The notes under the pieces are model-generated. The model was not told where the DNA came from, ran no database searches, and was given only the letters and a program-made list of their open reading frames with translations. Positions 53,258-56,411 of a DNA stretch of 64,000 nt are shown here, one piece after another (position 1 is the stretch's first letter; the number at the start of each line of letters is the position of its first letter). The stretch is taken from positions 248,001 through 312,000 of the forward strand of contig NC_019942.1 in NCBI RefSeq assembly GCF_000327505.1, in the 5' to 3' direction. Both the position numbers and the translations under genes were made by a program. This DNA is from Aciduliprofundum sp. MAR08-339. GTDB taxonomy: Archaea > Thermoplasmatota > Thermoplasmata > Thermoplasmatales > Aciduliprofundaceae.

Positions 53258-54004
53258 ATGATAACAGGTAGGGAGAGGTGTAAGACCGGAATCGAAGGTT
53301 TAGATAACGTGCTAAACGGGGGGATTCCGAGGGGCAATACCATACTTGTAACCGGATCTTGCGGGACAGGAAAAACCACCTTGAGTTTGGAATTCCTTGT
53401 GAGGGGCGCACTTATGGGTGAACGCTCAATGTACATATCAGTCACAGAAGTACCGGAAAAACTCATTGAAAATATGCGTACATACGAATTCTTTGACATG
53501 CGTCTTATTGAGGAAAAGAAACTCATATTCGTGGACCTCCAGGAGATATACGTCAAACTTGGACTTGAAAAACTTGAGTTCACCCTTGAGGATGTGAACA
53601 TTCTCGCATCACAGATAGTGAAAATGGTAAAGGAACTCGGAATAAAGAGACTGGTGATAGATTCAATAACATCCATATGTTACCGCCTCACCTCCAAGGA
53701 GCAGATAAGAGAGTTCATACTCCAACTTGGAAAGGACCTATCCGATATGGGATGCACCACACTTCTTGTATCAGAACTTCTTCCATCCTCAGCAGGCTAT
53801 TCCCAGTACGGTGTGGAGGAGGCAATTGCGGATGGCATAATATTCATGGGCAACCTTGAGAGACGCGGAGATCTGCTTCGCACAATACAGGTAATAAAGA
53901 TGAGGGGCACAACCCATTCCCGCGCAAAATACGTGCTTGATTTAACTTCCATAGGGATACTTCTTGCTCCCCTCTTGAAGGGAGGCAGTGTGGAGGTGCG
54001 TTGA
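53258..54004 (+). CDS. KaiC/RadA-like ATPase (canonical P-loop)
   Basis: A 248-residue RecA-superfamily ATPase of the single-domain archaeal KaiC group. It starts CKTGIEGLDNVLNGGIPRGN, has Walker A TGSCGTGKTTLS (residues about 32-41), Walker B RLVIDSITSI, and KMRGTTHSRAKYVLDLTS typical of the family. ATG 53258 begins at the conserved edge and has a TATA-like TTAGATATAGG upstream; ATG 53237 would add a non-conserved MRVYYLV. The next gene follows after 1 nt. It is the first of a four-gene set. Confidence 0.85.
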   Translation: MITGRERCKTGIEGLDNVLNGGIPRGNTILVTGSCGTGKTTLSLEFLVRGALMGERSMYISVTEVPEKLIENMRTYEFFDMRLIEEKKLIFVDLQEIYVKLGLEKLEFTLEDVNILASQIVKMVKELGIKRLVIDSITSICYRLTSKEQIREFILQLGKDLSDMGCTTLLVSELLPSSAGYSQYGVEEAIADGIIFMGNLERRGDLLRTIQVIKMRGTTHSRAKYVLDLTSIGILLAPLLKGGSVEVR

Positions 54005-54005
54005 G

Positions 54006-54581
54006 ATGAGTATTACTTCAAGCATAGTTGACAAACTTGACGAACTCCCACCGGCGTCATCCCTCGCCCTTTACGTTAGCGTTAACACATATTTTGATGC
54101 CCTTCGCGCCATAGTTGATATATTTGCCACAAAGCACGATCTCTATGTGTTTTACATATCCTCCACCATGCCATCCAAGAACATAGTCGGCCTACTTGAA
54201 ATTCTTGGTGTTGATACGTCCCGCATATTCTTCGTTGATACCATATCCCACCTGATGGCCAATGCCGGTGAGATGAGCGATCGGTTCCTATACATTGAAA
54301 GCCCAACAATGCTTGAAAATGTTATGCTCAAGATAGATTACCTGCACAGAAAATACGGTGACAAGAAGGCAATTGTCGTTCTCGACTCTGTAAATTCAAT
54401 GGCAATACACAACGATTTGAAGATCCTGAGCGAGTTCTTGCACATATTTGTAACATCCCTGAGAAGTTGGGAATCCTACATGGTCATAATATCCATGAAG
54501 GAGCAGAATACCCAAGACATTGTGAGTATGATGAATCTAATATGTGATGATGCCTTTGATGCTGGAGGGGAGGGCAGATGA
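54006..54581 (+). CDS. KaiC/RecA-like protein without a P-loop
   Basis: A 191-residue protein with RecA-like strands (SLALYVSVNTYFDALRAI, DLYVFYISSTMPS, AIVVLDSVNSM) but no Walker A at all; the LDSVNSM strand resembles Walker B of its neighbours. It is probably a non-catalytic partner or ligand-sensing relative. GGAGGTG sits 6 nt before ATG 54006. It overlaps the next KaiC-like gene by 4 nt (ATGA). No precise family is recognised. Confidence 0.7.
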   Translation: MSITSSIVDKLDELPPASSLALYVSVNTYFDALRAIVDIFATKHDLYVFYISSTMPSKNIVGLLEILGVDTSRIFFVDTISHLMANAGEMSDRFLYIESPTMLENVMLKIDYLHRKYGDKKAIVVLDSVNSMAIHNDLKILSEFLHIFVTSLRSWESYMVIISMKEQNTQDIVSMMNLICDDAFDAGGEGR

Positions 54582-55321
54582 ACGGATATGAGACCACAAG
54601 CATAGGAATAAGCACTCTTGACCGGGCCCTCATGGGTGGTGTTCCCAGGGGATACACAATCCTGCTCTACGGCTCCCCCGGATCCGGTACGGAACTATTT
54701 GCCAAGCAGTTTGCAGCCTCTGGCGCTGCCAAGGAAAACGTGATTTACTTCACGACCATTGAAAGGGATGAAGACATAATTGCAACCATGAAAGAATTTG
54801 GCTGGGATACGAATATAAAGATCATAAACATTGGAGTGGAGTACTACCACAAGGTCCTGGAAAAAGAACTGATCATAAGCAAGTACCGGGAGGAGGGAAT
54901 TCCCATAAACGAGATCTTCAAGCCTGCAAGAAAGAGAGAGGAAAAGGAGGTAAACTTCCTGACCAAGGTGACCTACGAGATTTCAAAACTCAAACCTCCA
55001 TTTCGAATAGTTATAGATTCTCTGGACTTCTTCCTGAACAGGTATGATAAGACCAAGGTGATCTCCTCACTTAGAACCATAAAGGCCCATGCCCAGTACT
55101 ATGGGGGTGTGGTTCTCATAACCATGCTCACCCCTGGAAGCAAGGGTACCGTGTACGGAGGAATCGAGGAGATCGTTGACGTGATACTTGAGATGGAGAT
55201 GAAGAGAGGAGATGAAGGATTTGAAAAATACCTGCTGATAAAGAAGGTGCGCAACCATCCTGAGAAAGTGGGTATATTCAAATACGATGTGAATGAGCAG
55301 GGAATAGTGCTTCTGAAGTGA
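54578..55321 (+). CDS. KaiC-like ATPase with altered P-loop
   Basis: A 247-residue KaiC-family protein (TTSIGISTLDRALMGGVPRG). The P-loop is GSPGSGTELF, with Thr38 in place of the invariant lysine, so it may not hydrolyse ATP alone. Walker B-like FRIVIDSLDFF remains. An insertion around residues 95-125 is rich in Lys and Glu. It overlaps the upstream gene and precedes a DUF763 gene by 4 nt. Confidence 0.8.
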   Translation: MNGYETTSIGISTLDRALMGGVPRGYTILLYGSPGSGTELFAKQFAASGAAKENVIYFTTIERDEDIIATMKEFGWDTNIKIINIGVEYYHKVLEKELIISKYREEGIPINEIFKPARKREEKEVNFLTKVTYEISKLKPPFRIVIDSLDFFLNRYDKTKVISSLRTIKAHAQYYGGVVLITMLTPGSKGTVYGGIEEIVDVILEMEMKRGDEGFEKYLLIKKVRNHPEKVGIFKYDVNEQGIVLLK

Positions 55322-55325
55322 GGAA

Positions 55326-56411
55326 ATGGAGAGGAGTGGATTTGCCAACTTGCCCCTTCATCCAGGCCACGCACCCAGATGGCTTTTTGGCAGGATGGTC
55401 AATTTATCTAAAGAGATTGTGAGCATCATTGCTCTGGAGTATGGCACCGAGGAGGTACTGCGTAGATTTGCTGACCCCTACTGGTTTCAGGCATTCTCCT
55501 GCGTGATCGGATTTGACTGGCACTCTTCAGGCACAACAACAGTAACCATGGGTGCTTTGAAACAGGCGTTGAGAGTGGAGGATGGCCTCGTGGTGGTAGG
55601 TGGCAAGGGCCGGATATCAAGAAGCACGCCACTGGAAATTGAAAAATTTGGATATGAGATGGGACTTTCATCCCAGAAAATTGAAGAGATAAAGTACGCA
55701 AGCAAAATGGCGGCCAAGGTTGATAATACAGTGCTTCAGGATGGCTATCCACTTTACCATCACACGATGCTTCTGGACGAGCATGGAAACTGGGTGGTTA
55801 TACAGCAGGGCATGAATTCAAAGAAAAAGTACGCGAGGCGCTATCACTGGCTCCACGGAATAAACAGTTATGTAAACGAACCTCGTACGGGAATAATTGC
55901 AGATTCAATAGAGGCACAGGTACTTGATATGAGCGCAAGGGTGAGCGAGGAAGCCAGAAAAATATCCGTGGATGTGGTGCGGGATAACCCAAAAAAGATA
56001 AGGAACATGATAGCTGATGCAAGTACCAAGGGACAAAAAACGCTGGACGAGTTTTCAAATGTAAAGGTGCTAACAATGCCCTGGCACATAAATTGGAATA
56101 CCCTGTTCAAAGCATACGAGATTCAACCCAAAAATTACGAAGAACTCATCGGAATTAAGGGTATAGGTCCATCCACAGTTCGCGCTCTTGCTTACATAGC
56201 AGAGATCATATACGGTGCGGAAGTTTCATGGAAAGATCCTGTAAAATACTCCTTTGCCCTGGGAGGTAAGGATGGTGTACCGAAGCCCGTGGACAGAAAG
56301 ACATACGATAATAGCATAGAGATCCTGCAGATGAGCATAGAGGAGGCATCCCTGGGCAGGAAGGAGAAGTTGGAGATGCTGAGAAGGTTGAGGAGGTTTG
56401 TTCCACCTTAG
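55326..56411 (+). CDS. DUF763 family protein
   Basis: A 361-residue protein of the DUF763 family, found in archaea and some bacteria. The conserved N-terminus is RSGFANLPLHPGHAPRWLFG, with GTTTVTMGALKQAL and later HHTMLLDEHGNWVVIQQGMN. A C-terminal helix-hairpin-helix-like segment (LIGIKGIGPSTVRALAYIAE) suggests nucleic-acid contact. The biochemical role is unknown. It ends a KaiC-like operon, hinting that the ATPases act with it, perhaps in DNA repair or recombination. Confidence 0.85.
   Translation: MERSGFANLPLHPGHAPRWLFGRMVNLSKEIVSIIALEYGTEEVLRRFADPYWFQAFSCVIGFDWHSSGTTTVTMGALKQALRVEDGLVVVGGKGRISRSTPLEIEKFGYEMGLSSQKIEEIKYASKMAAKVDNTVLQDGYPLYHHTMLLDEHGNWVVIQQGMNSKKKYARRYHWLHGINSYVNEPRTGIIADSIEAQVLDMSARVSEEARKISVDVVRDNPKKIRNMIADASTKGQKTLDEFSNVKVLTMPWHINWNTLFKAYEIQPKNYEELIGIKGIGPSTVRALAYIAEIIYGAEVSWKDPVKYSFALGGKDGVPKPVDRKTYDNSIEILQMSIEEASLGRKEKLEMLRRLRRFVPP

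Follow-up and report, generated by a model that had tools for sequence, protein, structure and literature searches.

A KaiC-family gene cassette with one intact ATPase and two apparent pseudo-ATPases is conserved in Thermoplasmatota, with type IV filament control as a candidate output

We analysed a 64,000-nucleotide (nt) stretch of the Aciduliprofundum sp. MAR08-339 genome (the window; positions 248001-312000 of a 1.437-Mb single-contig genome, NC_019942.1) and examined four consecutive genes in it, here called P1 to P4, of which P1, P2 and P3 make up a cassette of the KaiC family and P4 encodes a DUF763 protein. We found that the conserved unit at this locus is the three-gene P1-P2-P3 KaiC cassette, to which DUF763 is a local addition. 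The reading that we favour, at a probability of roughly 0.55, is that these three genes form a signalling cassette of one ATPase and two pseudo-ATPases, whose most likely output is the control of a type IV filament. This reading builds on the phylum-wide linkage of the genes, the pattern of active and inactive sites, the folds, the adjacency of pilin genes and the sensor modules in some related cassettes.

Conservation of the three-gene cassette

We scanned the whole collection with a P2 alignment, which yielded 236 loci, and examined 80 of them, all of which belong to Thermoplasmatota or to metagenome bins labelled Euryarchaeota/Thermoplasmata. The results showed that P1 and P2 are both present in 78 of these 80 loci and share a strand in every case (78/78), with a junction of no more than 60 nt in 67 of the 78; longer apparent overlaps are due to unrefined start codons. 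The two exceptions are L120, which is a contig edge, and L174, in which P1 and P2 lie within one open reading frame (ORF). P3 is the next gene after P1-P2 in 59 of the 78 loci. Another 39 loci were read at class and phylum level; 37 of them hold both P1 and P2, which share a strand in 36, and 23 hold P3. P2 matches (E<=1e-20) were found in 123 of the 293 sampled genomes of the phylum Thermoplasmatota. Within the order, a close P1 (E<=1e-60) is present in 25 of 101 genomes, which also hold a strong P2, and one extra genome has a strong P2 on a contig that begins inside this gene. In every order-level region read, P2 adjoins P1 and their order is constant, and P3 follows them in three of the four families holding the pair; in the fourth family, P3 was not found anywhere at E<=1e-40. 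Such lasting linkage of P1 with P2, and in most cases with P3, over a whole phylum makes the arrangement more than chance.

A P1-P2 gene fusion was also considered as evidence of interaction and set aside. The single fused ORF (L174:1-1275) lies on a 3-kb metagenome contig and may be either a fusion or an assembly fault, while the other long apparent P2 frames that were checked are in a different frame from P1.

In the window, P1 and P2 are separated by 1 nt, P2 and P3 overlap by 4 nt (ATGA), and P3 and P4 are separated by 4 nt (Table 1). An earlier note on this DNA (the original prediction) had described exactly this four-gene layout, together with an intact Walker A motif in the first gene, RecA-like strands without a P-loop in the second, an altered GSGTE loop without its lysine in the third, and a DUF763 protein with a motif like helix-hairpin-helix (HhH) in the fourth. 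These descriptions hold at the same coordinates: GSCGTGKTT is present in P1 and GSPGSGTELF in P3, the predicted fold of P2 agrees and its P-loop segment is shortened, and the match of P4 to DUF763 (PF05559) is strong, that to HhH being weak.

Table 1. Genes of the locus, in coordinates of the window.
Gene	Position	Strand	Length	Assignment	Basis
P1	53258-54004	+	248 aa	KaiC-like ATPase, Walker A GSCGTGKTT	Pfam KaiC
P2	54006-54581	+	191 aa	RecA/KaiC-fold pseudo-ATPase (putative), without P-loop	Predicted fold; adjoins P1
P3	54578-55321	+	247 aa	KaiC-like pseudo-ATPase (apparent), GSPGSGTELF	Pfam KaiC
P4	55326-56411	+	361 aa	DUF763 protein	Pfam DUF763; weak HhH

The source genome contains 20 matches to the KaiC profile in 1.44 Mb. 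A second, paralogous cassette of two genes is located on the minus strand at G000:C1:37537-38807 (L032:7538-8808), where the gene for an intact KaiC-like ATPase precedes one for a P2-like protein that weakly matches DUF835/DUF7504; most of the genomes sampled from the source family have weak P2-like matches of this kind. Two further KaiC-like genes stand in tandem, with an overlap of 4 nt, at G000:C1:231395-232881 (L047:6396-7882).

Nucleotide-binding motifs and predicted folds

P1 is a member of the KaiC-like ATPase family (Pfam KaiC, PF06745; 198 bits, 1.8e-58, cut-off 26.6). In the class-wide alignment, the Lys and Thr of its Walker A motif, the Asp of its Walker B motif (VIDSIT) and its finger motif KMRG..H are each kept in 99 of 99 sequences. 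A Thr-Glu pair (VTE) occupies the position of the catalytic Glu-Glu of KaiC, again in 99/99, meaning that one of the two catalytic Glu residues is present. When compared with the two domains of KaiC, P1 scored 124 bits against CI and 67 bits against CII, and its YGVEE motif carries Glu-Glu as in CI (99/99 and 98/99); autophosphorylation of the CII type is therefore not expected at that site. A role of P1 as a circadian autokinase of the KaiABC type was rejected, because P1 has a single CI-like domain and Glu-Glu at the CII phospho-sites.

P3 is also a member of the Pfam KaiC family (101.5 bits, 6e-29), and its structure model matches KaiC. Its loop reads GxPGSGTE, in which the Mg-binding Ser/Thr position is Glu or Asp in 79 of 79 sequences of the class-wide alignment. 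The P-loop Lys is mostly lost, the exceptions being two class-level sequences and family f38 (Lys kept, Glu still there), and the loop is decayed further in L203, L213 and L215. The Walker B motif and the KxR finger region of P3 are largely kept. The finger residues are K214 and R216 in P1 and R225 in P3.

No Pfam family matched P2 above its cut-off; DUF7090 (26.1 bits, cut-off 27) and KaiC (18.4 bits, cut-off 26.6) came below, and a distant P2-like protein in L205 barely attains the KaiC cut-off (26.8 bits). A search of PDB sequences with P2 returned nothing meaningful, and profile-profile comparison of P2 with P1 or P3, using narrow profiles, gave no significant match. The AlphaFold2 model of P2 has a mean predicted local distance difference test (pLDDT) score of 89.3, and the PDB structure closest to it is 2dr3, the RecA-family ATPase PH0284 (template modelling score 0.74), with KaiC, RecA and SSO2452 also among its best matches. 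In the alignment, P2 is without the P-loop segment of P1 and P3, which is shortened, and without the C-terminal strand that bears the finger residues of P1; it has conserved motifs of its own, ESPTMLE and DSxNS. P2-like relatives show weak matches to DUF835/DUF7504 and to KaiC. P2 is placed in the RecA/KaiC superfamily, as a prediction, on the basis of the modelled fold and these weak family matches of its relatives.

Judged by the Walker A residues (Lys plus Ser/Thr), only P1 is predicted to be catalytically competent, with P3 and P2 lacking this pair, and P2 and P3 are apparently pseudo-ATPases. The idea in the original prediction that one active ATPase works with two non-canonical relatives is strengthened by the phylum-wide linkage of P1-P2(-P3) and by the conserved pattern of active and inactive sites.

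Pilin and signalling neighbours

Outside the family in which DUF763 adjoins the cassette, 53 class-level loci had enough sequence to read the downstream region, and in 44 of them a gene whose product has the N-terminus of an archaeal type IV pilin starts on the same strand within 500 nt downstream (gaps of 42-394 nt). Two of these downstream genes were checked, and both scored above the Pfam Pilin_N cut-off. In two distant lineages, a pilin gene abuts the cassette directly, with a gap of 9 nt (L200) or an overlap of 8 nt (L196). Given that 25 of these genomes contain 84 Pilin_N matches in ~54 Mb, a same-strand pilin start within 500 nt would be expected at ~4 of 10,000 loci, which is ~0.02 expected compared with 44 of 53 seen; this expectation is an order of magnitude, as the loci are mutually related and some of these same neighbours went into building the pilin profile. 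Outside the source family, the cassette thus has the pilin adjacency expected of a regulatory neighbour of type IV pili.

Two other features of these neighbourhoods were observed. Upstream of the cassette, 46 class-level loci (e.g. L156:3833-5131) carry a divergently oriented gene for a protein in which an OMPdecase/HUMPS-family domain is fused to an RraA-like domain. Some lineages have P1-P2 followed directly by a pilin gene, with P3 not found in the region read (L206, L208, L210, L211, L216, L217, L222, L223 and L225); the P1 proteins of these loci have lower scores and P-loops such as GVPGVGKT.

Signalling domains were also found in some related cassettes. At L205:3985-11872 (G508), a protein with the domain order KaiC-KaiC-PAS-PAS-HisKA-HATPase lies amid four P2-like genes and another KaiC-like gene, and at L189:4785-5900 and L190:3751-4875, a protein of 371-374 aa with MetOD1/ATC-hydrolase-like domains lies between P2 and P3. 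Such domains are related to the V4R and HNOB sensor domains (PMC5847659). These sensor or kinase modules, which now and then lie within such cassettes or are fused to them, fit a function in signalling with a frequent tie to pili.

Several observations weigh against a filament output. In the source family, no pilin gene adjoins the cassette, the adjoining gene being DUF763, and in the source genome a long distance separates the cassette (301-304 kb) from the type IV pilus/archaellum ATPases (5-9 and 1140 kb). In the wider phylum sample, a same-strand pilin within 500 nt downstream was found in 13 of 34 loci. The pilin start is usually 40-270 nt downstream of the cassette, which makes a separate transcript possible. 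Moreover, Thermoplasmatales hold pilin-domain genes without the cassette, indicating that the cassette is not generally required for pili.

A question raised from these observations is whether the cassette might be a KaiC signalling hub that has inactive partners and an output not specific to filaments (e.g. transcriptional or metabolic), the pilin adjacency being a gene order inherited in some lineages. The occurrence of P1-P2-P3 without an adjoining pilin, in the source family and across many of the more widely sampled lineages, speaks for such a hub, as do the sensor/kinase modules and the known existence in archaea of KaiC hubs and of inactivated KaiC-like domains (iKaiC; PMC5847659). However, pilin adjacency recurs far above chance, including the direct abutments in distant lineages, and we regard a hub without filament specificity as possible rather than probable.

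For the favoured reading, a signalling cassette acting on a type IV filament, we infer the following mechanism. P1 would be the nucleotide-binding and probably ring-forming ATPase of KaiC CI type. P3, with its dead P-loop and mostly kept finger region, and P2, with its minimal RecA fold, would be pseudo-ATPase partners in complex with P1, and their binding may depend on the ATP/ADP state of P1, so that partners exchange with that state and relay it. The output would be control over whether a type IV pilus or a related filament is expressed, assembled or active, comparable to the action of ArlH on ArlI, and DUF763 would be an extra operon gene of one family with a separate role. A stronger version is put forward only tentatively: the three proteins would join in a single hetero-oligomeric assembly of KaiC type, ancestral to Thermoplasmatota, with one catalytic subunit and two that are pseudo-ATPases, and this nucleotide-gated switch would act directly on the assembly of type IV filaments.

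The cassette is a variant of KaiC-type signalling systems that are already known. P1 and P3 belong to the same Pfam family as the KaiC CI domain and the archaeal single-domain KaiC-like ATPases (PH0186 and PH0284), and P1 shares the CI-type YGVEE and KMRG..H motifs. Unlike KaiC, P1 has a single domain, without CII and its phospho-acceptor Ser/Thr pair, and is accompanied by two degenerate partners instead of KaiA and KaiB. The model for the proposed action is ArlH (FlaH), a KaiC-family regulator of the archaellum motor ATPase ArlI and thus a family member tied to a type IV filament; ArlH binds ATP, stimulates ArlI and ceases to interact with it on autophosphorylation (PMC8978795). However, P1 (44 bits) and P3 (51 bits) score far below the ArlH cut-off of 215 (NF052589) and are not ArlH, and the cassette lies outside the archaellum operon (301 kb versus 1140 kb for the likely archaellum ATPase) and contains two extra pseudo-ATPase genes. 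KaiC-family ATPases are also associated with several archaeal type IV pilus loci (arCOG01171, 01174 and 01175; Makarova, Koonin and Albers 2016, PMC4858521), with which the cassette has in common both the superfamily and the association with pilus or pilin genes. The available part of that survey describes single KaiC genes, or KaiC with a KaiB-like or DEATH-like partner, and does not mention a P1-P2-P3 trio, of which an earlier description elsewhere is possible. A dead KaiC fold in signalling is likewise represented by iKaiC, DUF835 and MEDS, as echoed by the weak DUF835/DUF7504 matches of the P2 relatives, but there, as far as the available part of PMC5847659 goes, such domains are outputs fused to REC or PAS, whereas P2 and P3 are each encoded on their own within a fixed cassette. 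In Haloferax volcanii, the KaiC homologues CirA and CirD have an effect on both archaellation and cell shape (PMC13286277); the likeness is by description only, and these proteins act with the regulator CsmR, no three-gene cassette being reported in that work.

DUF763, the remaining alternatives and implications

P4 is a clear DUF763 protein (430 bits, cut-off 35.5, 5.5e-129) whose residues 266-288 weakly match HhH, and a PDB sequence search with it returned nothing meaningful. The original prediction proposed it as a possible nucleic-acid effector in one complex of all four proteins. The 4-nt junction and the P3-DUF763 order, which is fixed in all 16 evaluable source-family (f1) genomes, favour such a complex, but this order does not extend further. 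Of the order's 101 genomes, 79 contain DUF763; in the sister families f4 and f5, it lies on a different contig from the cassette in 5/5 genomes holding both, and other genes follow P3. It was not detected in four f3 genomes with P1-P2, and in family f6 most sampled genomes have DUF763 and no P1 or P2 match. These data indicate that DUF763, being unlinked or cassette-free outside the source family, is an add-on and not a core member: its linkage is a lineage-specific gain confined to that family, and its role is independent of the cassette. A four-gene complex is therefore unlikely. The neighbourhood search proposed in the original prediction thus gave a split answer, since P1-P2, and mostly P3, stay linked in relatives whereas DUF763 is linked in one family only.

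A recombination mediator, in which a RadA-paralogue complex would have the HhH-bearing DUF763 as its DNA-binding partner, was one of the functions suggested originally. It draws on the RecA superfamily and the HhH match, and on the relatedness of P1 (101 bits) to SSO2452, a RadA paralogue with reported anti-recombinase activity (PMC8708640). However, P1 matches KaiC far better (229 bits) and is closest to KaiC CI, and the RadA/RadB models are far below cut-off (RadB 29 bits for P1 and 17 for P3, cut-off 278). DUF763 also loses its linkage outside one family, and of the genes that recur beside the cassette, which are pilins and signalling modules, none was recognised as a recombination gene; this function is improbable. 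Overall, the active ATPase with two inactive-looking relatives has stood, and a nucleotide-sensing switch is still plausible, but DUF763 as its effector and the recombination mediator have not.

The eukaryotic Elongator subcomplex Elp456 is a hetero-assembly of P-loop-less RecA folds, with a logic similar to that of the cassette. An archaeal counterpart of this hetero-ring serving Elp3 in tRNA modification, hinted at by weak matches of P3 (8.6e-5) and P1 (4e-4) to Pfam PAXNEB/Elp4 and of P2 to Elp5/Iki1 (0.12), is highly improbable, as all these matches are below cut-off and the phyletic profiles differ, every one of the order's 101 genomes having an ELP3-profile match (92 above cut-off) and about a quarter having the cassette.

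Archaeal KaiC-like proteins are numerous and have been proposed as signalling hubs, but their partners are rarely assigned. A phylum-wide cassette of one live and two dead paralogues offers named partners and residues, and in several lineages it is tied to pilin genes. Such a cassette could reveal how the nucleotide state of a KaiC protein is passed to an output without KaiA or KaiB.

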